From a virus: a stretch of DNA of 64,000 bases. Under the pieces are notes generated by a model. The model saw only the letters and a list, made by a program, of their open reading frames with translations, had not been told where the DNA came from and did no database searches. A program made the translations under genes and the position numbers. Positions 33,831-62,479 of this stretch are shown here, one piece after another (positions within the stretch are counted from its first letter, which is position 1; each line of letters starts with the position of its first letter). Where the stretch lies: positions 1 to 64,000 of the IMG/VR virus record IMGVR_UViG_3300043446_003513; one strand, given 5' to 3'.

Positions 33831-33855
33831 CTAACCAGTAACGAAAGGAAACGAA

Positions 33856-34581: not shown

Positions 34582-34608
34582 CTGCTTATCAACTACGAAA
34601 GGAAAAAA

Positions 34609-34904: not shown

Positions 34905-34931
34905 ATACGCACCAACAACGAAAGGTAAAAA

Positions 34932-35639: not shown

Positions 35640-35665
35640 AATCCCACCAAGAACGAAAGGCAACA

Positions 35666-36628: not shown

Positions 36629-36671
36629 ATACCCATAACTTCATACAACTACTATCGAAAGGAAATGCCAC

Positions 36672-37658: not shown

Positions 37659-37685
37659 TCAACTAATCTAATCGAAAGGAAACCA

Positions 37686-38693: not shown

Positions 38694-38730
38694 TACGCAA
38701 CTCCTGGGTATGAGTATAAACTGCCTTCCT

Positions 38731-38803
38731 GGCCCATTAGCTTAGCGGTTAAAGCGCTACCCTGTCACGGTAGAGATCGTCGGTTCAAATCCGATATGGG
38801 TCG
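38731..38803 (+). tRNA. tRNA-Asp (GTC)
   Basis: 73 bases; acceptor GGCCCAT/ATGGGTC, anticodon loop CTGTCAC, T-loop GTTCAAATC. No CCA encoded. It lies between DUF932 and the next promoter. Confidence 0.93.
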
Positions 38804-38864
38804 CCCCCAAAATCATGGGTGCAAAAATGCTTTTACGCAACCCAAAAATATTTTCCCGAAATGC

Positions 38865-38893: not shown

Positions 38894-38920
38894 TCTGCCA
38901 ACAGAACGAAAGGAATAAAT

Positions 38921-39435: not shown

Positions 39436-39460
39436 ACACCCAATCAACGAAAGGAAGGCA

Positions 39461-40454: not shown

Positions 40455-40859
40455 ATGGGAGACAGAGCAAACTTTGGATTTGTGCAGCCTAACGGTCACA
40501 CAATTGTATTGTATGGGCACTGGGCTGGTGAGAATATGCTAGCTAATTTAGCAGATGCAGTTAATGCAGCTCGTCCTCGTTGGGGCGATTCATCATATGC
40601 GACACGTATTGCAATTAGTCAATTAATTGGCAATGAATGGAACGGTGAGCTTGGCTGGGGTTTGGCCGTAGATGAGATTCTAGACAATGAGCACCACATT
40701 GCAATTGTTGATTTTGAACAGCAAATATTTTCTCTTCATCCTGAGGATGAGCACGTCAACAAGGATAACAAGGTTAGGGGAATGCGTAATGAACCTAAAT
40801 TCACCATGGACCTAGATTCATTTGTGAATAAATATGGAGACGTTGTAGTTGGCGTTTGA
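40455..40859 (+). CDS. Conserved actinophage protein
   Basis: 134 residues. MGDRANFGFVQPNGHTIVLY, GHWAGENMLANLADAVNAAR and SYATRIAISQLIGNEWNGEL are strongly conserved lines that I recall in many actinobacteriophages. No known function. Its end contains the -35 region of the small RNA promoter. Confidence 0.75.
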   Translation: MGDRANFGFVQPNGHTIVLYGHWAGENMLANLADAVNAARPRWGDSSYATRIAISQLIGNEWNGELGWGLAVDEILDNEHHIAIVDFEQQIFSLHPEDEHVNKDNKVRGMRNEPKFTMDLDSFVNKYGDVVVGV

Positions 40860-40885
40860 CATATTAGCCGAAGTTATTCTATAAT
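40856..40885 (+). promoter_or_regulatory. Promoter of small RNA candidate 2
   Basis: TTGACA (40856-40861), 18-base spacer, TATAAT (40880-40885), both boxes consensus. It lacks TGTCGGTG, so it is controlled differently from the regulon. Confidence 0.82.
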
Positions 40886-40891
40886 ATGAAT

Positions 40892-41038
40892 AGGTCTTCC
40901 AGGGCCTATTCATTATAGGTAAGGTGCCGCTACTAGGTCTATCACCGAGTGGCTAAGTAAGGCAAGCGTTCTTCCTTTCGTTTCGCTAGCAGCCTACCAC
41001 ATTAATCCCCGCAGCTTATGTTGCGGGGATCTTATTTT
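40892..41038 (+). ncRNA. Small RNA candidate 2 with anti-RBS loop
   Basis: About 147 bases with no useful reading frame. The 5' end can fold as ATAGG/CCTAT. The segment 40960-40998 can form a long hairpin: GTA-GGC-AGCG on one side and CGCT-GCC-TAC on the other, with a loop TTCTTCCTTTCGTTT. CTTCCTTTCGTT (40971-40982) is the exact complement of AACGAAAGGAAG, found before start codons of the early genes. It ends in a strong terminator. Likely a trans-acting translation regulator; target pairing is inferred. Confidence 0.7.
41005..41038 (+). terminator. Rho-independent terminator
   Basis: ATCCCCGCA (41005-41013) and TGCGGGGAT (41022-41030) then CTTATTTT. Confidence 0.85.
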
Positions 41039-41155: not shown

Positions 41156-41178
41156 TATGCCATAACGAAAGGAAAATT

Positions 41179-42517: not shown

Positions 42518-42540
42518 ATTAATATAGCGAAAGGATAACA

Positions 42541-54737: not shown

Positions 54738-54759
54738 TTTTTTCTCCGAACTTTATAGC

Positions 54760-54830
54760 TGGCCCACCTGGACTCGAACCAGGAACCTATGAGTTAACAG
54801 CTCACCGCTCTGCCTATTGAGCTATGGGCC
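54760..54830 (-). tRNA. tRNA-Asn (GTT)
   Basis: 71 bases on the minus strand; acceptor GGCCCAT/GTGGGCC, anticodon loop CTGTTAA, T-loop GTTCGAGTC. No CCA encoded. Confidence 0.93.
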
Positions 54831-54876
54831 ATTACAACTCAATAAGTATAATTATACATTATTAAACAGGTTGATG

Positions 54877-55563
54877 TCAACGAAGCTTAAATTTTCTTTT
54901 TGCAAAAGAAACTGGGTCTAATTTGCCAGTCCATAAAGTTTTTTCTACCTTTTCTACTGGAACACAATTAGGAACCATTCTTCCGCCTTTTTCTTTCATG
55001 CCAACCTGCTTGTATCCAGTCCAACATTTTTGCATTTCGTTGTCCCATTTATCTTCATCTTCATTATCTGATTTATAAATTTCATTTTTATTTTCTGACT
55101 CAAGGTCGGTCTGACCATCCATTTTTTCAAAATCTTGATCGTCTTCTATTTCAATTACTGTATCTATTGGATTCATAATGTCATCTAATAAATCTGCTAA
55201 CTCTAGTGCTAAACTGTCTTCGTTTACAAAAGATTTTTTCATGTTCTTTTCTCTTTCAACAATTTTTCTAGACCAAGAAAATCCAGCATCTCCACCCCAA
55301 GCATCCCACATAATTCTTCCATTAGACGGATTTGATGTGTTGTAGAAATCTTTTCCCTTTTTGTCTACTTCATGTCTTGAAAAGAAAGAATACATGCGCT
55401 TAACTGTAGAAAGACTTAATGTTTCTCCACGAGCTAACTGTCCAGCTCTTGTCCAACCAACTGCAGTTCCAGCTCCCTTTGCCTTACCTTCTTCTTTCCA
55501 TCTAATTGCTCTTTTTGCCGCTGACTTCATTCCAGAAGTAGGCTTGTATCCTTCTTTTGCCAT
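54877..55563 (-). CDS. Conserved phage protein of the SAAKRA-W family
   Basis: 228 residues. TSGMKSAAKRAIRWKEEGKA, KGAGTAVGWTRAGQLARGET, TVKRMYSFFSRHEVDKKGKD and MWDAWGGDAGFSWSRKIV are strongly conserved lines known from head-gene or terminase neighbourhoods of many phages. Acidic middle; the end has CWTGYKQVGMKEKGGRMVP. Function unknown. Confidence 0.8.
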   Translation of the reverse strand: MAKEGYKPTSGMKSAAKRAIRWKEEGKAKGAGTAVGWTRAGQLARGETLSLSTVKRMYSFFSRHEVDKKGKDFYNTSNPSNGRIMWDAWGGDAGFSWSRKIVEREKNMKKSFVNEDSLALELADLLDDIMNPIDTVIEIEDDQDFEKMDGQTDLESENKNEIYKSDNEDEDKWDNEMQKCWTGYKQVGMKEKGGRMVPNCVPVEKVEKTLWTGKLDPVSFAKRKFKLR

Positions 55564-55706
55564 TATTTCTCCTTAATACTATTAATTTTAATGCTCTTAA
55601 TTTCATCGTCTACGCTAAAAATATCACTAACATACTCTGAAGCATCATCTTCATTGAACGCCTGAATTTCTATTTCTACGTCTAGCTTAATTTTATAGGT
55701 GTTCAC
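55563..55706 (-). CDS. 47-residue protein, leaderless GTG start
   Basis: NTYKIKLDVEIEIQAFNEDD. GTG lies six bases after TATAAT (minus strand, 55713-55718). TAATG overlap with the next gene. Small beta-alpha protein of unknown role. Confidence 0.6.
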   Translation of the reverse strand: MNTYKIKLDVEIEIQAFNEDDASEYVSDIFSVDDEIKSIKINSIKEK

Positions 55707-55721
55707 TAAATAATTATAGCA

Positions 55722-55753
55722 TAAAATAAGGCGACGCCAGAAGCGTCGCCTTA
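55722..55753 (-). terminator. Rho-independent terminator
   Basis: AAGGCGACG and CGTCGCCTT (55728-55752), then ATTTTAT. Its tail runs into the promoter of the next gene. Confidence 0.85.
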
Positions 55754-55763
55754 AATATAGGTT

Positions 55764-56009
55764 TTATTTCTTTACCCCTTTTTTGTCAACGGCATTAAAA
55801 GCTTCATTAATTTCTTCTAATGAAAGCTTACCGTCGTCAAGGAACGAACGTGCTAATTTTTCTACAACGGTAGCAACTCCAAGACCGCCAGCAAGCATTA
55901 CTGCCTTCATTGTATCAATTCCAACAACGGCCCCAGCTCCAATTACGGATAGTCCAGATGCTGCAAAAACTGCTACGATACGCATTATTACATTAACCAT
56001 GCCTTGCAT
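55764..56009 (-). CDS. Small membrane protein, holin candidate
   Basis: 81 residues. Two hydrophobic segments (IVAVFAASGLSVIGAGAVVG; AVMLAGGLGVATVV) and an EF-hand-like end (LDDGKLSLEEI). Mirror layout of 22325-22567. It follows 56011-56223 and the PA14 protein. Confidence 0.62.
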   Translation of the reverse strand: MQGMVNVIMRIVAVFAASGLSVIGAGAVVGIDTMKAVMLAGGLGVATVVEKLARSFLDDGKLSLEEINEAFNAVDKKGVKK

Positions 56010-56010
56010 T

Positions 56011-56223
56011 TTAGTCCTCCTTTTTATTTCTTATTCTTAAAGTAACAATCCAAACAATTGTTGACCAAACAATTGCCCATCCAACTATTGTTCTGGCTGC
56101 TCCAGTAAGTGTTAGCCATGCGATAAAGAATCCAAGTAGTGTGAATGTTTGATTCATTATTTCAATAAATGAATCCCTTATCCATGCAAAAAATCCTTTT
56201 ATCATTTTAATTACTAGTTTCAT
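56011..56223 (-). CDS. Small membrane protein, holin candidate
   Basis: 70 residues. Amphipathic start and two membrane segments (FTLLGFFIAWLTLTGAA; IVGWAIVWSTIVWIVTL), then a basic end. Size and topology fit a class II holin. Overlaps the PA14 gene by one base. Confidence 0.62.
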   Translation of the reverse strand: MKLVIKMIKGFFAWIRDSFIEIMNQTFTLLGFFIAWLTLTGAARTIVGWAIVWSTIVWIVTLRIRNKKED

Positions 56224-58412
56224 TAGATCCTCCTCGCTGATAATATATTTGCGACAGCATTCATAACTTGAGAAACTATAATTACAGGAATAATTACTTC
56301 CTGAGCTTTTTCTCTTTGATCATCTGTCATGTCCGACCCAAGGCTAGCTAAAGCTTCTCCTGGATTAGAAAGTAAATCTGAAGTAAATTGAGCTAATTCT
56401 TGTAAGCTCTCACCAACTGCAGCAGCAGCTGCACCTGGGTCTGTAAACGCTTCTGTAAGTCCTGAAATAATTTGTTCTGCTTGAACCTCTGTTGCTGCAT
56501 CAGCAAGTGTGTATGGCATAGGGGAATTTGCATTAGCCTCCGCTCTTTGATTAAATTGTTCTACTGCTTGTGCAATTACTGGATCAGATTTAATTAATTC
56601 TGCCAATAATTTTACATCTTCCTTTGATAAATCAGTTTCTTTAATTACTTCAATTAATTGTTCTGTTTCTTTTTTAGATAATCCGCTATCTTCTAATATA
56701 TTTGCTATAATTATTTCATCTTTAGAAAGGTTTTCAGTTGGAAGATTTTCTTGAACATCTTGGTCCTGGACATCATTTATGGTCTCTTGAGGATCTTGTG
56801 TCTCTGTATTATCTTCAACAGGGACTTCTGGCTCAGGAGGTAGGACTTCAGTCTGATCTGGCTCTACTGGAACAGGTTCTGGATTTGGTACATCATCGAC
56901 TGGGGGATTCTGTTCATCGATTGGAGTTTCATCAATTGGTGTTTCTGGTTCAACAGGAATTGTTGAATCCTGATTTGGATCAGGATCTTGTTCTGGTTCG
57001 GGAGCTGGCGGAACAACGGGATCGGGATTTGGAATTACTGGTGGCTGGACTGGTACGGGAGGAGGCTCTGGTGTCGGAGGTTGAACTGGTGGAGTGGGAT
57101 TGGGTTCTGGTGCAGGAGGAGGCTCTGGAGTCGGAGGTTGCTGAGGTGAAGGCTCGGGAGTTGGAGTTGGTGTTGGAGACGGCTCGACAGGAGCGGGAGA
57201 AGTTGGAGTGGGCGAAGGCTCCGTGGGAGTTGGAGATGGGCTCGGGGTGGGTTCAGGAGCGTTCTTAAAAGTAATAGAAAGTATTAATATTTTACCAACT
57301 CCTGGAACTGGATCTGTAAAGTTAGCATTTGTAGCAGATATATTTGCTGTAGCTAAATTTGTAAATTGTTCTGTAAGCTGACTAGAAACATTAATACCTT
57401 GAGAGCCATCATTTGGGTGCCCATACCAACCAATGATTTGATCTATTAGTTTACCTTCTGGTGCATTTATAACTATAGAATCATTTTCATTTATTGTATG
57501 TTGTGGAGTAAATGGTAGTGGTGATGGAATATATAAAGTTACTACATTAGAATCTTGAGAATAAGTTGACAAACTATCATTGTCTGCTCTTATTTTAAAC
57601 TGATACTCTTTACCAGTTCCGTCAGTAGTAATTACGCTATATGGAATTGTTATAGATGTATTTAATGCTGTTTCGCTTCCAACATTACCAGTTGCTACCC
57701 CCCACCCATTAGTTGTAAAATTTGTTGTAGACCAGCTGATTGCGTATCTTTCTACTGCTGTATTTGCTTGAGTTGGAACAGGTGCAGTCCAAGATAAAGT
57801 TATATTTTCTGATTGTGTGCTTAAAGACAAACCTGTGGGAGGATTTAAAGATGGTGGAAGTGGGGGAGTTGGTTCTGTCAAATAAAAAACTGTGGACGGA
57901 ACAATTTGATCCCCAGAACCATCGTTCCAATATAACCAAACATTTGCCCCACCGCCATTTTCATAAAACCATAAAGTGAATGGATATGGGGTATTTGCTT
58001 GTAAAGTAACTGGCTGACTTATACTTCCGCCGCCACCTTTGTCATACCAGTCATTAATTAAAACTATATTATTAAAAGTAAAATGTATACCATCATCGCC
58101 AGGAGCATAAAAGTTTACTGTCTTTGTTACTGGAGACATAATATAACCAGTAAATTTAACTTCTACATCTTCATATCTATTACTAAGTACTGGTCCACCA
58201 CCCCAGTTAAAATCTATTGTAGATACTGTTGTGGTATTAATTAACACATTTTGATAGCATGGTCTAGGTGGAGCATTGTTCCATCCTGCACAATTGTATA
58301 CTTGTGCTGTTATGCCATTCTCATTAGTAGCCGCTGCCGACTCTACAAAACCAAAAAAGGATGACCCAAAGATCACCCCTAGGACGGCAACTATGCGAAA
58401 AAGTTTTTTCAA
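56223..58412 (-). CDS. Secreted PA14 - FnIII - Pro-rich protein
   Basis: 729 residues from TTG 58412. Signal peptide (LFRIVAVLGVIFGSSFFGF). Residues 35-185 form a PA14 domain (NFYAPGDDGIHFTFNNIVL; FTLWFYENGGGANVWLYWN), a sugar-binding beta barrel. Residues about 190-290 are FnIII-like. Residues about 390-560 are Pro-rich with Ser-Pro-Thr-Pro and Pro-Glu-Pro repeats. A helical end finishes with a hydrophobic IIPVIIVSQVMNAVANIL. It may span or coat the cell wall, or sit on the virion. The Pro-rich part could be modified by the oxygenases. Confidence 0.75.
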   Translation of the reverse strand: MKKLFRIVAVLGVIFGSSFFGFVESAAATNENGITAQVYNCAGWNNAPPRPCYQNVLINTTTVSTIDFNWGGGPVLSNRYEDVEVKFTGYIMSPVTKTVNFYAPGDDGIHFTFNNIVLINDWYDKGGGGSISQPVTLQANTPYPFTLWFYENGGGANVWLYWNDGSGDQIVPSTVFYLTEPTPPLPPSLNPPTGLSLSTQSENITLSWTAPVPTQANTAVERYAISWSTTNFTTNGWGVATGNVGSETALNTSITIPYSVITTDGTGKEYQFKIRADNDSLSTYSQDSNVVTLYIPSPLPFTPQHTINENDSIVINAPEGKLIDQIIGWYGHPNDGSQGINVSSQLTEQFTNLATANISATNANFTDPVPGVGKILILSITFKNAPEPTPSPSPTPTEPSPTPTSPAPVEPSPTPTPTPEPSPQQPPTPEPPPAPEPNPTPPVQPPTPEPPPVPVQPPVIPNPDPVVPPAPEPEQDPDPNQDSTIPVEPETPIDETPIDEQNPPVDDVPNPEPVPVEPDQTEVLPPEPEVPVEDNTETQDPQETINDVQDQDVQENLPTENLSKDEIIIANILEDSGLSKKETEQLIEVIKETDLSKEDVKLLAELIKSDPVIAQAVEQFNQRAEANANSPMPYTLADAATEVQAEQIISGLTEAFTDPGAAAAAVGESLQELAQFTSDLLSNPGEALASLGSDMTDDQREKAQEVIIPVIIVSQVMNAVANILSARRI

Positions 58413-58423
58413 CCTCTTTCTCC

Positions 58424-58454
58424 CAATGTTTTATAACTTATTTATAAAACATTG
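58424..58454. promoter_or_regulatory. Perfect 13-bp inverted repeat before the PA14 gene
   Basis: CAATGTTTTATAA (58424-58436) and TTATAAAACATTG (58442-58454), 5-base loop. It lies between TATAAT (minus strand, 58457-58462) and the SD. It may be an operator or an mRNA leader hairpin. Confidence 0.65.
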
Positions 58455-58494
58455 AAATTATAGCATGTTTTAAAGCCTAATTTATTTTAGTTAA

Positions 58495-58674
58495 CTACTT
58501 ATTATCTGTCTTGTAGAATCCAGTTCCTTTAAACTGTATTCCAACTGATCCATAAGATCTTGTAGTAGCGTAACCGCAAGATAGGCATCTGGGAACAACT
58601 TCTTCGTCGTGAAAACCCCTAGTTACCTCTAATGATTTATCGCATGTCACACATACATACTCATATACTGGCAT
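58495..58674 (-). CDS. FmdB-type zinc ribbon protein
   Basis: 59 residues from ATG 58674 (ATGAGGAAAAT upstream; a longer frame exists). MPVYEYVCVTCDKSLEVTRG and PRCLSCGYATTRSYGSVGIQ then FKGTGFYKTD are the FmdB regulatory-protein pattern with two CxxC. Common in actinobacteria; role unclear. Overlaps the cupin gene. Confidence 0.85.
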   Translation of the reverse strand: MPVYEYVCVTCDKSLEVTRGFHDEEVVPRCLSCGYATTRSYGSVGIQFKGTGFYKTDNK

Positions 58675-59251
58675 TTTTATTTTCCTCATTTTTGTTAACT
58701 GGAATATCAAAAATTATGGTTGCTCTGGGCTCAAAAATTACAGCTTGATGTATTATACCCGTTGGTATATAAATAACATCTCCAGGAGATAAAATATATT
58801 TTTCATATTTTAATCCTCTAAAGTCTATGGGCTCTCCAAAATTACATGGAACGTCTTCATAGATTCTATACTCCACGCTTCCAATACATTGCCAAGAAAT
58901 CACATCTTGTGGATCTTTGTGTGCACTATAAAGGGCTTCTTTGCCAACAAAATTTATTAAGGCTTTTGCATACCATTCTTTTTTTTCTTTAAATAAATAT
59001 TTTTCTGCATTTTTAATTTCTTGAAAAAATGTTTTTTTATTTAAAAATGTTGCAACATTCCAAAACTGTGGATCAAATTTATTGTACATAAAAATGTCAG
59101 TACATTTATCTTCTTTAAAAACAAACTCGTCTTTTGATCCGTGTATAAAATCTTCATGTGGATTATTAAATTTATAATCCAAAGCACGAATAAAGTCTTC
59201 CCAGTGTGGCACTATTGGTAAAACATTTTTTTTGTATTCTACCACATTCAT
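58661..59251 (-). CDS. JmjC/cupin-type 2OG oxygenase-like protein
   Basis: 196 residues. H111 and D113 (YSAHKDPQDV) and H168 (IPTGIIHQAVIF) match the iron ligands of JmjC/cupin-8 hydroxylases; LSPGDVIYIPTG is the cupin line. A different branch from the fourteen P4H-type copies. JmjC enzymes hydroxylate proteins or ribosomal parts. SD AAGGATATT. Confidence 0.75.
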   Translation of the reverse strand: MNVVEYKKNVLPIVPHWEDFIRALDYKFNNPHEDFIHGSKDEFVFKEDKCTDIFMYNKFDPQFWNVATFLNKKTFFQEIKNAEKYLFKEKKEWYAKALINFVGKEALYSAHKDPQDVISWQCIGSVEYRIYEDVPCNFGEPIDFRGLKYEKYILSPGDVIYIPTGIIHQAVIFEPRATIIFDIPVNKNEENKNASI

Positions 59252-59267
59252 TAATATCCTTAATATA

Positions 59268-59294
59268 AAAGCATGGCGCGATGCGCCATGCTTT
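59268..59294 (-). terminator. Rho-independent terminator
   Basis: AAAGCATGGCGC and GCGCCATGCTTT with a 3-base loop, then TTATATT on the minus strand. Confidence 0.82.
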
Positions 59295-59301
59295 ATTTTA
59301 T

Positions 59302-59925
59302 TTATTTCTTTTTAGGAGCAGATTTTTTAGCTGGAGTTTTAGCTGGTGCTTTCTTAGCAGCAGGTTTTGCTGGTGCAGCAGCTTTTACTTCCTTCTTTTT
59401 TACTGGAGTGCCAAATGCTGGTCTGCCGAATCCAACAATTGCAACTGGCTTGCTTGGCATAACCTTAGATCCGTTTTTCTTCTTGTATGCTCGACGCTGT
59501 AGGCAAACCTCTCCGCCATTTCTTTGATCTCCAGCCTTTGCCTTTGTTGTGTTTCCTTCAATGACCATGACTGTTCCATCGCCGTTGTCTTTTACAACAA
59601 TTCCAACGTGTGAAATTCTATCTACGCCATCATTTGGAAAATCAAAATAAGCAATGTCTCCTGGTTGTGGGGTTGCCTCTTCTGCCTTTTGCCATGTTCC
59701 AGCCTTCATAAATGCTTGTGCCCCCGCTGGAGTATAAACAGTATTTGGCATTTTTACTTGTGCTTCATTTGCACACCACATGACAAAGCTTCCACACCAT
59801 GGCTGGAAATTTGATCCAGTAAATGCGCCAAACTTTGTCTCGTTGTCTTTTGGACCCTCGACATATCCTTCTTCCGCTAAAGCAATTTCTACTAGTTTTG
59901 CTGCAGAACCTGGTACTGCTGTCAT
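59302..59925 (-). CDS. CHAP-domain endolysin-like protein
   Basis: 207 residues. C44 (FQPWCGSFVMW) and H106 (DRISHVGIVVKD) form the CHAP amidase/peptidase site. The last 45 residues are a Lys/Ala/Pro-rich tail (AAKKAPAKTPAKKSAPKKK), like histone H1 tails, that may bind acidic cell-wall polymers. It cuts peptidoglycan peptides. No signal peptide, so it needs a holin. Confidence 0.86.
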   Translation of the reverse strand: MTAVPGSAAKLVEIALAEEGYVEGPKDNETKFGAFTGSNFQPWCGSFVMWCANEAQVKMPNTVYTPAGAQAFMKAGTWQKAEEATPQPGDIAYFDFPNDGVDRISHVGIVVKDNGDGTVMVIEGNTTKAKAGDQRNGGEVCLQRRAYKKKNGSKVMPSKPVAIVGFGRPAFGTPVKKKEVKAAAPAKPAAKKAPAKTPAKKSAPKKK

Positions 59926-60386
59926 TATTCTCCTTGATTATTTATAATAGTTTTTAAAGATGAAACCATTTTCCATCTAAATTTTTCATGCACGGCAATT
60001 CTATCTGCAAAAAAGTTTGCCACTCCTTGCTCGCCAGCAATGTTTGCCATATTAAATGCATTCTTTAGGTCTTCAATAATTCTTTCATTAGAAACTACCA
60101 AAGACTTTAGCATGTCTGTTGGATTATTAGTATTTCCTAGATCGTACTTTACATTAGAAGTCATAACAGCTTTTGCAGCATCAAAATCTGCATACTGTCC
60201 AAAAATTCTAATCCATTCAGCATATCCATCTATAGAATTCCATGCATCGTTATATATTTCTGAGAAAAAATCATGGAACTGATTAAAAAGAATTCCTTCC
60301 GTGTTCCAGTGATATCCATGTGCCTTTGTGTAGTAAACAAAAGCATTGGCTTGAAGTAATCTTAATTGTTGAATCAGCGTTTCCAT
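59925..60386 (-). CDS. dps: Dps/ferritin-like protein
   Basis: 153 residues, normal Dps size. AHGYHWNTEGILFNQFHDFF and EIYNDAWNSIDGYAEWIRIF hold the His, Asp and Glu iron ligands of Dps at the dimer interface. Dps stores iron and uses peroxide. SD AAGGAGGG. TAATG overlap with the endolysin gene is odd. It may manage iron for many Fe-dependent oxygenases (inference). Confidence 0.87.
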   Translation of the reverse strand: METLIQQLRLLQANAFVYYTKAHGYHWNTEGILFNQFHDFFSEIYNDAWNSIDGYAEWIRIFGQYADFDAAKAVMTSNVKYDLGNTNNPTDMLKSLVVSNERIIEDLKNAFNMANIAGEQGVANFFADRIAVHEKFRWKMVSSLKTIINNQGE

Positions 60387-60434
60387 TGATCCCTCCTTAA
60401 ATGTTTATAATCATTATACCATTTATATATTTTG

Positions 60435-60506
60435 AGCCCCCAGAGGGATTTGAACCCCCGACCTACGCATTACAAGTGCGTTGCTCTACCTCTGAGCTAT
60501 GAAGGC
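60435..60506 (-). tRNA. tRNA-Thr (TGT)
   Basis: 72 bases; acceptor GCCTTCA/TGGGGGC with G-T pairs, anticodon loop CTTGTAA, T-loop GTTCAAATC. Confidence 0.9.
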
Positions 60507-60510
60507 GTTG

Positions 60511-60583
60511 CGCCTTTGGCAGGAATCGAACCTGCGACCTAATGCTTAGAAGGCATCCGCTCTGTCCCCTGAGCTACAAAGGC
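60511..60583 (-). tRNA. tRNA-Arg (TCT)
   Basis: 73 bases; acceptor GCCTTTG/CAAAGGC, anticodon loop CTTCTAA, T-loop GTTCGATTC. Four bases from the tRNA-Thr. It reads AGA, a codon common in this AT-rich genome. Confidence 0.92.
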
Positions 60584-60589
60584 GTGTAT

Positions 60590-60748
60590 TTATTTTTTAC
60601 TATTTTTAGATTCTGAAGCATATAATGCTTTTAAATGTGCCAATGCTCTAGATTTGCTTGGATGGCAACCAACTAATTCGTTAGTTCCTTCTTTTACAAC
60701 AGCAAATCCTTTGCAACCAGCCGCATTTTGTTTTATTTGCCAAGGCAT
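60590..60748 (-). CDS. 52-residue conserved phage protein
   Basis: PWQIKQNAAGCKGFAVVKEG and ELVGCHPSKSRALAHLKALY are lines known in small phage proteins. Ends next to the tRNA genes. Function unknown. Confidence 0.7.
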   Translation of the reverse strand: MPWQIKQNAAGCKGFAVVKEGTNELVGCHPSKSRALAHLKALYASESKNSKK

Positions 60749-61042
60749 CTAGTCTTCCTCTCCTGGAAATTGAAACAATCCATACTCTTCAGCCAAAGAT
60801 ATCCCTTCGTCTGTTAATTCAAATGTTGCCTCTAATTCCTCATTATATGAGACAGACAATAATCCTTTTTCGTAAAGATCCATGAGCATTTCATCAACAT
60901 TTTGTTGATGCGCCTTCCATAAAAGAGGAGCCACCTCTTTTGCCTTTTTTGTTATTCTAAACATAAACTCTCCATTTTCGTCTATGCCAGTTAATTCTAC
61001 AGCGCCCACTTCAAGGTAGTATTCTAGATCCTCTGATTCCAT
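60749..61042 (-). CDS. Winged-helix-like protein
   Basis: 97 residues. YYLEVGAVELTGIDENGEFM, DEMLMDLYEKGLLSVSYNEE and FELTDEGISLAEEYG resemble a winged helix of actinophages. TATAAT and SD GAGGAG precede it. A DNA-binding role is possible. Confidence 0.68.
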   Translation of the reverse strand: MESEDLEYYLEVGAVELTGIDENGEFMFRITKKAKEVAPLLWKAHQQNVDEMLMDLYEKGLLSVSYNEELEATFELTDEGISLAEEYGLFQFPGEED

Positions 61043-61072
61043 AACTTCTCCTCAATGTAATTATACAATAAT

Positions 61073-61789
61073 TTAAGAAAATTCTCTAACTATCTCGTCT
61101 AATATCTTTTTATTAAATTCTTGTTTTAAATGATCTAATTTAAAGTTTATAAATCTTGGATCTAAACAATCTATGCACTCATGGCACTCAAAAGACTCGT
61201 CTAGCCGATCTACTCCTAAAATATCTTCTGTGCTTATTGGTTCTTTTAATCCAAATTCTTTCAAATATTTTCTTAAAAAATATTTATATTCTTTATGATA
61301 TGGAAATCTGGATTGAAAATCGTAATTCGGGTTACCAGATCCTAATGGGTTAATAAATTGTGGAATTGGTTCTATAAATTGCAATTTGTATCCTTCAAAA
61401 AAATTTAAAGTTTTTTCAATATAATTTTTTATTACAACTTCTGTATTTTTTTGATGAGGTAAATGTGCTTTTATGTCAATATACCCAAAAAATGGAAAAA
61501 CTGTAAAATCTTTTGTAATTGTTTTTTTAATACAGGGATATTCCCCTCTGGTATATGAACATGAATAAGCGGAACCTCCCCTATGACCAGAAAAATAAAC
61601 ATCAACTGGCAAATTTTTTGATTTAGTAACATGAAACATTACGCAATCTGAATGATAATTAAAACTATCATCATGTTGAAAAATTTCACTATCTGGTTTC
61701 CATGTGCATCCGTCTACATGATCTTGTCCTTCTAACCCTATAGAATTTCTTAATCTAAATGTATGACTATCTCCTATAATATATAACAT
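61073..61789 (-). CDS. SGNH/GDSL-hydrolase-like protein
   Basis: 238 residues. LYIIGDSHTFRL has the catalytic Ser8 in a GDSH block; the end has DCLDPRFINFKLDHLKQ with an Asp-x-x-His-like pair. The family removes acetyl or acyl groups from sugars. Similar proteins occur in sugar-modifying clusters. It pairs with the SDR gene upstream. Confidence 0.7.
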   Translation of the reverse strand: MLYIIGDSHTFRLRNSIGLEGQDHVDGCTWKPDSEIFQHDDSFNYHSDCVMFHVTKSKNLPVDVYFSGHRGGSAYSCSYTRGEYPCIKKTITKDFTVFPFFGYIDIKAHLPHQKNTEVVIKNYIEKTLNFFEGYKLQFIEPIPQFINPLGSGNPNYDFQSRFPYHKEYKYFLRKYLKEFGLKEPISTEDILGVDRLDESFECHECIDCLDPRFINFKLDHLKQEFNKKILDEIVREFS

Positions 61790-61803
61790 TAATAACCTCT
61801 TTC

Positions 61804-62385
61804 TTAAAGTTCAATTAGTTTTCCATTGTATGATTTGTCTGCATTTAAAATAATTTTTGAAATATTTTTTCTTATATCGTCTGTTATTGTAGGTGGAGAT
61901 ATACAAAAAATAGCTTGTTCATTTTTTGCATATAACGAAAAAGATCTCGCAAAAGATTGTATAGCTCCCTTTACTGCAGATAAATTAAAATCTTCATAAG
62001 GTACATTTGCAACTAAAGAAGAAATTAAAATTAAATGTCCGTCCTCGTCTAAAAAATTAAATAAATTATAAACAAGATATATATAATTAAACAAATACGA
62101 ATCATAGTAAATTTTAATTTTTTTAAAGTCTAAATTTAAATAATCTGAAGGGAAAGCATTTCCAGATAAAATAATTATTTTTTTATATTTATTGTTTGCC
62201 TTGTTTATAAAATTATCTATAGATTCTTTATTTTCTAAATCCAAATATTGCCAATTGTATTTTGAGTTTATTTTAAACCTATTTCTATAACTTACCAGGG
62301 ATATTAAATAATTTTTTTCCTCTAAGTCTTTACTTAAAAAATTAAAAATACTACTGGTCCCTCCAACTACTAAAACATTTTTCAT
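61804..62385 (-). CDS. Short-chain dehydrogenase-like protein, catalytic Tyr missing
   Basis: 193 residues, a short SDR. NVLVVGGTSSIFNFL is the nucleotide-binding turn; ISSLVANVPYEDFNLSAVKG has the Ser and Lys, but the residue four before Lys is Leu, not Tyr. So oxidoreductase activity is doubtful; it may bind a nucleotide sugar or act structurally. Very AT-rich codons. SD AAAGGATT. Confidence 0.72.
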   Translation of the reverse strand: MKNVLVVGGTSSIFNFLSKDLEEKNYLISLVSYRNRFKINSKYNWQYLDLENKESIDNFINKANNKYKKIIILSGNAFPSDYLNLDFKKIKIYYDSYLFNYIYLVYNLFNFLDEDGHLILISSLVANVPYEDFNLSAVKGAIQSFARSFSLYAKNEQAIFCISPPTITDDIRKNISKIILNADKSYNGKLIEL

Positions 62386-62405
62386 AAAATCCTTTCAATT
62401 AATTG

Positions 62406-62479
62406 TACACCAGGTAGGACTTGAACCTACGATAACCGAATTATGAGTTCGGGGCCTTGACCAACTTGGCTACTGGTGC
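62406..62479 (-). tRNA. tRNA with CAT anticodon (Met or Ile2)
   Basis: 74 bases; acceptor GCACCAG/CTGGTGT, anticodon loop CTCATAA, T-loop GTTCAAGTC. Elongator Met or lysidine-modified Ile cannot be told apart by eye. Confidence 0.88.

Follow-up and report, generated by a model that had tools for sequence, protein, structure and literature searches.

The RNA locus and its surroundings

The window, the whole 64,000-nucleotide stretch analyzed here, is part of a 106,679-base IMG/VR phage record whose host, judging from its relatives, is presumably a freshwater actinobacterium. Its right part, 33-43 kb, is occupied by rightward operons of short genes mostly of unknown function, which gene content and layout lead us to regard as early. 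Between two of these operons lies the RNA-coding stretch, positions 40892-41035, flanked by a sigma-70-type promoter and an intrinsic terminator (Table 1). The initial annotation had proposed a small RNA in a gene-free interval framed by a consensus promoter and a strong terminator, and all three features were present: no open reading frame of at least 40 aa was found between 40860 and 41179, the terminator has the expected stem and tail, and the promoter is the only 12/12 match to the sigma-70 consensus in a scan of 30-46 kb. This promoter lacks the TGTC(A/G)GTG motif carried by the spacers of the early-operon promoters, indicating that control of the RNA is probably different from that of the early operons. 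Many relatives harbor, as judged by eye, a 5' hairpin similar to that of the window but with altered stems upstream of the RNA element. The window also holds five tRNA genes, for Asp within the early region and for Asn, Thr, Arg, and Met on the opposite strand (38730-38806 and 54758-62479), and no tmRNA was detected in it by ARAGORN.

Table 1. Positions of the RNA, its signals, and the leader sites in the window, and of related elements in other phages
Feature	Position	Strand	Basis or remark
Sigma-70-type promoter of the RNA, TTGACA-18-TATAAT	40856-40885	+	12/12 consensus match
5' hairpin TGAATAGG...CCTATTCA, presumed transcript start	40887-40911	+	Read from sequence
Three-stem element conserved in the family: P1, P2 enclosing P2b, P3	40919-40998	+	Covariance model R1 match; covariation, 87 homologs
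Stem P2 (GCCGCT/AGTGGC), enclosing hairpin P2b	40926-40953	+	Covariation, 87 homologs
Junction UAAGUAA, family form UAARUAA	40954-40960	+	Found in nearly all homologs
Stem P3 (AGCG/CGCT) with 15-base loop 40969-40983	40965-40987	+	Covariation
Anti-leader motif CUUUCGUU in P3 loop	40975-40982	+	Kept among relatives
Intrinsic terminator	41005-41030	+	11-pair stem, 7 G-C, then T-rich tail
Leader site AACGAAAG before ATG 33856	33840-33847	+	
Leader site ACGAAAGG before ATG 34609	34595-34602	+	
Leader site AACGAAAG before ATG 34932	34917-34924	+	
Leader site AACGAAAG before ATG 35666	35652-35659	+	
Leader site CGAAAGG before ATG 36672	36656-36662	+	
Leader site CGAAAGG before ATG 37686	37673-37679	+	
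Leader site AACGAAAG before ATG 38921	38905-38912	+	
12-base exact complement AACGAAAGGAAG before ATG 39461	39446-39457	+	
Leader site AACGAAAG before ATG 41179	41164-41171	+	
Leader site CGAAAGG before ATG 42541	42528-42534	+	
Scaffold homolog of Streptomyces phage Yaboi, unannotated	L299 789-853	minus	Covariance model; also L300-L306
Anti-SAS hairpin, Adephagia	L290 38640-38720 (about 58.68 kb in Adephagia)		Orphan reversed SAS in terminal loop
Anti-SAS hairpin, Anaya	L291 about 34870		Orphan reversed SAS in terminal loop

A three-stem RNA family

Using the protein encoded by the upstream neighbor gene as a query, we obtained 51 loci, 50 of which extended far enough to be judged and without exception contained the element, and pattern scans added more, giving a family of about 250 homologous loci in IMG/VR; the related sequences in these family counts are not independent of one another. 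Eighty-seven distinct members were aligned with a covariance model, and model R1 recovered the element in its own genome with 40.5 bits and an E value of 4.3e-8. The fold comprises an outer stem, P1 (GGU/GCC), followed by P2, which encloses P2b, and by P3. Over the 87 homologs, 92% of the cells were paired, compared to 72% after shuffling, and the covariation score was 0.433, compared to 0.134 for the shuffled control and no more than 0.09 for slid structures, with both sides changed in 385 cells. In P2, 99.8% of the cells were paired and two pairs showed both-side changes, while in P3 such changes were seen in 7/7 modelled pairs. The homologs thus share a common fold with compensatory changes, as is characteristic of a conserved structured RNA family.

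Searched at the gathering threshold, the Rfam 15 families, including C4 antisense RNA and RNAIII, matched only tRNAs in the window and 11 relatives, and none of the weak matches in the RNA region was credible. The RNA constitutes a newly defined conserved structured family that is absent from Rfam. A search for prophage or genome copies returned one match among genome contigs. No single-stranded part of the scaffold is better conserved than the junction, UAARUAA. In all homologs (e.g., alignment A3), the closing base of P2 and the junction mostly swap as a unit between GCUAAGUAA and GUUAAAUAA: a C is accompanied by a G four bases further along, and a U by an A, a pattern suggestive of tertiary or short-range pairing within the junction.

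The P3 loop and its conservation

The 15-base loop closed by AGCG/CGCT that had been predicted from the window alone corresponds to the loop of P3, UUCUUCCUUUCGUUU, which includes CUUCCUUUCGUU. Its motif, CUUUCGUU, was kept in all 50 relatives fetched via the neighbor gene and in 42 of the 43 new loci found by a loop-agnostic scan. The P3 stem has been rebuilt repeatedly (AGCG/CGCU, AGAGUUC/GAACCUCU, GGAUCU/AGAUCC, and others) around an unchanged CUUUCGUU; since this 8-bp core is invariant, it provides conservation and not covariation. When the window RNA was folded as a lone sequence, CUUUCGUU had a mean unpaired probability of 0.53, the family median being 0.70, and it is mainly family covariation that argues for an open P3 loop.

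The initial annotation had singled out, as an observation that would speak against it, a loop that drifts while AACGAAAGGA stays. Such drift was limited to the bases facing the Shine-Dalgarno (SD) core in the proposed duplex, and the 8-base core CUUUCGUU did not take part in it: in many phages the CC needed for the SD-core match is replaced (ACUUUCGUUGG, UCUUUCGUUGG). In one contig, L188, the loop reads CUUUCGAU, with one base changed and the leaders unchanged.

Complementary sites precede early gene starts

The exact complement of the loop claimed before ATG 39461, AACGAAAGGAAG, was found there, and the matches claimed at nine other starts were all real, with lengths of 7 to 10 bases (Table 1). 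On the plus strand of the 64 kb, 7/7 occurrences of ACGAAAG sit 6-8 bases 5' of an ATG, each following a promoter with TGTC and then, within a few bases, a TATAAT-like -10 box. Likewise, all 10 CGAAAGG occurrences in 31-44.2 kb are located at starts, versus 0.8 expected. When every 7-mer over 155 bases of the RNA region was considered, only those of 40972-40982 had complements repeated at starts, except for three 7-mers reaching two starts. The mean duplex energy of the loop was -12.8 kcal/mol with leaders after early-type promoters, compared to -6.9 kcal/mol with other genes, and in a shuffled control, none of 1,000 shuffled loops scored as well. A version of this control that included stem bases proved misleading because those bases are not free, and it was repeated with the loop alone. 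Between 33.8 and 42.6 kb, the window shows a repeated early promoter cassette, namely, a TGTC(A/G)GTG-type spacer motif, a TATAAT-like box, a short leader, AACGAAAGG, and ATG, which occurs upstream of ATG 33856, 34609, 34932, 35666, 38921, 39461, 41179, and others.

The same bias was seen family-wide. Over 2.48 Mb from 246 loci, the RNA strand had CGAAAG 1,566 times before starts and 383 times elsewhere, while the opposite strand had it 26 times before starts and 507 times elsewhere, about 246 of the latter presumably being the RNA loops themselves. The AA located 5' of CGAAAG, which is not pairable with the 16S tail, showed roughly 67-100% conservation at each position in every loop class with at least 10 sites. 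AACGAAAG was present in 654 of the 1,155 promoter-anchored leaders and almost confined to short early-operon leaders, mostly 8-17 bases 3' of the -10 box and thus near the mRNA 5' end. It is a motif at the position of the ribosome binding site (RBS) that is longer than 16S complementarity. Taken together, the start bias, the conservation of AA, and the position of the motif identify the leader of the first gene of an operon, and not the general SD of the phage, as the shared element.

Co-occurrence of loop and leader

Conversely, we picked 15 long contigs by the promoter-leader pattern alone, and 13 of them contained the RNA; the remaining two break off within the early region, with the leader cluster running to the contig end. 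Scans that left the loop unspecified found CUUUCGUU in nearly all loci and yielded a few homologs that depart from it: besides L188, these are L228/L230/L260, with the P3 loop CUGGGGGUGUU, L229, with CCUCGAAAA, and L270-L273. In L228/L230/L260 and L229, only 1 of 13 promoter-anchored leaders carried AACGAAAG, versus the family ratio given above, and whole-record counts of AACGAAAG were near background save for a few sites in these records and in L270-L273. As these loop-swapped homologs represent few lineages, they are supporting rather than decisive. In L270, L271, L272, and L273, P3 is a minimal hairpin, GCGC-ACA-GCGC, without a targeting loop, so that the scaffold alone remains. For the swapped loop CUGGGGGUGUU of L228, L230, and L260, pairing would be possible with ACCCCCAUG or GCCCCCAUG where the upstream 255-260 aa gene begins, possibly a new single target or a chance match.

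Two earlier proposals, namely, that complementarity extends past the SD core and that the locus harbors what would be a discrete conserved RNA with a loop complementary to the early leader, are thus supported by the family covariation, by the bias for strand and starts, by the search in the converse direction, and by the homologs with swapped loops. The flanks of the motif were less clear-cut. The base after AACGAAAG was G at 72% of the sites where the loop cannot pair with it, compared to 93% otherwise, whereas the same comparison at control SD sites gave 64% and 66%, i.e., no difference. The A after this G, however, differed between classes at control SD sites too (28% and 8%), and some CC-loop phages keep the leaders of the other class, showing that the flank effect is partly due to shared ancestry. 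For the supposed coevolution of the A after AACGAAAGG, ancestry accounts for part of the pattern.

The scaffold in Streptomyces phages

Three elements searched had no DNA similarity to cultured phages; it took the covariance model to reach Streptomyces phages. It detected the scaffold in both terminal repeats of Streptomyces phage Yaboi (E value of 2.5e-7), and 86 Streptomyces phage records share this place of the scaffold; those inspected carry no RNA annotation there. In Jay2Jay, an annotated CDS overlaps the scaffold homolog on the opposite strand. The P3 loop of the Streptomyces phages differs, being of the GGUCGG type, and the scaffold would thus either predate the CUUUCGUU loop or have lost it in these phages. 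After P1, they have a conserved tail at the 3' side, ACCUUUCAAU, whose complement is GAAAGG. In the 14 kb examined, 7 of the 11 GAAAGG occurrences are located before gene starts; since GAAAGG is in itself an SD, this complementarity is no more than a lead. Yaboi also encodes a true tmRNA (L181 4416-4694) directly 3' of the homolog of the gene located upstream of the RNA in the window. We rejected it as a relative of the window RNA because the two have no evident common sequence, and their shared position would reflect coincidence or replacement.

Proposed function and alternative explanations

We consider it probable that the locus gives rise to an approximately 144-nt phage RNA which, through pairing with early leaders, would act in trans and lower or time the expression of the whole early set. 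The P1/P2/P3 junction would keep the P3 loop open, and CUUUCGUU would pair over 8 to 12 bp with AACGAAAG(GAA), at or just 5' of the SD, in the roughly 22-nt leaders common to the first genes of the early operons. The duplex would then keep 30S subunits off the early mRNAs, and a single RNA would lower or time the full early set, probably switching it off. Loop-leader pairing is well supported by sequence, and we infer that the RNA is transcribed and pairs in the cell. If the pairing is real, repression rather than activation is quite likely, judging from phage c4, sar, and similar RNAs that pair with the RBS (PMC12197685). The same duplex at the 5' end might instead activate or protect, shielding short-leader mRNAs from decay or holding an open form, and the distance of the sites from the -10 box, 8-17 bases, which places them a few bases from the presumed mRNA 5' end, would be compatible with this. 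In two loop classes, moreover, pairing spans AACGAAAG and misses the best SD (AGGA, AAGGA), which lies downstream of the paired bases and fits occlusion less neatly. The CC-loop class, the window included, nevertheless pairs over the SD itself, and known RBS-pairing RNAs mostly repress (P1/P7 c4, P22 sar; PMC12197685), so that we regard activation or protection as rather unlikely.

As the scaffold exists without the CUUUCGUU loop in some phages, it must have a role of its own, and it could itself be the functional part, with a role in protein binding, at the ribosome, or in packaging, the loop being kept for a purpose other than leader pairing. Its occurrence with other loops in L228-L230, L260, L270-L273, and the Streptomyces phages would fit such a role, as would the strong conservation of the UAARUAA junction, but this explanation, which we deem improbable, accounts neither for the exact complementarity of the loop to a motif found only at early starts nor for the scarcity of that motif where the loop has been lost. 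The resemblance of UUCCUUUC to the actinobacterial 16S tail, CCUCCUUUCU, raises the question of whether the loop is a generic anti-SD decoy binding any mRNA, that of the host included, and good binding of the loop is also seen for a few genes outside the early set that have strong SDs. However, the conserved part is CUUUCGUU, the CC facing the SD core is the part that many phages have replaced, and the loop binds weakly to the remaining genes of the window, which makes a decoy very unlikely. Hardly any weight can be given to the view that the element is a cis-acting leader or attenuator of gene 41179 and not a free RNA: although the RNA and its terminator lie directly upstream of this gene, the gene has its own promoter and short leader 3' of the terminator, the downstream gene varies among relatives, and the terminator is missing in some of them.

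Comparison with known regulatory RNAs

RNAIII, a bacterial RNA of 514 nt, and similar pyrimidine-loop RNAs carry a loop complementary to the SD regions of several mRNAs, which they usually repress. RNAIII pairs with the SD core, whereas the present RNA has an unrelated scaffold and a loop whose conserved core extends to the 5' side of the SD; the comparison with RNAIII made in the initial annotation thus holds for the style of interaction but not for descent. Staphylococcus aureus RNAIII acting on coa is reported to be a case of loop-SD pairing (PMC2837412). The c4 antisense RNA of P1/P7, whose loops pair around the RBS and block translation (PMC12197685), is likewise an RNA of a phage with a loop complementary to the RBS of a phage mRNA, but c4 has one target (ant) and another fold, while the present RNA faces about ten leaders and has no Rfam match. 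Mycobacteriophages D29/L5 and Rhodococcus phage WC1 produce highly expressed non-coding RNAs (PMC5712189, PMC10986025), which, compared by description, are also unannotated actinobacteriophage small RNAs and for which these papers give no target or loop rule.

Phage small RNAs with known targets usually act on one phage or host gene, whereas the present family, which is found in hundreds of freshwater phage contigs, would face a whole regulon via a common leader. Its natural loop swaps make it a candidate programmable regulator, and the proposal can be tested now because the scaffold is present in cultured Streptomyces phages and an analogous hairpin in cultured mycobacteriophages.

A parallel in mycobacteriophages

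Start Associated Sequences (SAS) have been described in cluster K mycobacteriophages and cluster EF Microbacterium phages (PMC3203893, PMC7302621). Their authors left open whether the partner is RNA or protein, and K1 genomes contain one reversed SAS copy without a gene (PMC3203893). Like SAS, the leader element described here is a conserved RBS motif of many non-structural genes, longer than 16S needs and located beside promoter elements. The motif itself is different, AACGAAAG as opposed to GGGATAGGAGCCC or GGGAAAGGACCCC, and does not correspond to the 13-base SAS consensus GGGATAGGAGCCC; in addition, the SAS system has 17-bp inverted repeats (ESAS) upstream, while the promoter motif TGTC(A/G)GTGG-TATAAT is seen here. 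The scaffold model gave no match in five SAS phages.

In Adephagia, Anaya, and Enkosi, the reversed SAS copy makes up the loop of a long hairpin (Table 1), whose stem shows one or more compensatory changes (CAG/CTG to CCG/CGG). In Adephagia, this hairpin sits in the gp92-gp93 gap, where late transcription appears to begin (PMC11373665). Anti-SAS loops are not general among SAS phages, as no comparable hairpin was found in Pixie, ZoeJ, or the Microbacterium phage AnnaSerena. That anti-leader loops arose twice is suggested by these sequences as a lead, not as proof. More tentatively, actinobacteriophages might possess an early off switch composed of a common start-associated leader and one RNA with a matching loop, which could have arisen more than once, on the freshwater-phage scaffold and on the unrelated K1 hairpin, and in which a loop swap would rewire the regulon. 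This suggests a possible answer to the question raised in PMC3203893, namely, what purpose the start-associated sequences of actinobacteriophages serve, an RNA partner included. The region of the anti-SAS hairpin was found in 188 records, and the cluster K relatives Amohnition, Tierra, Cain, and Ximenita keep the hairpin with a pyrimidine loop that is no longer an exact match.
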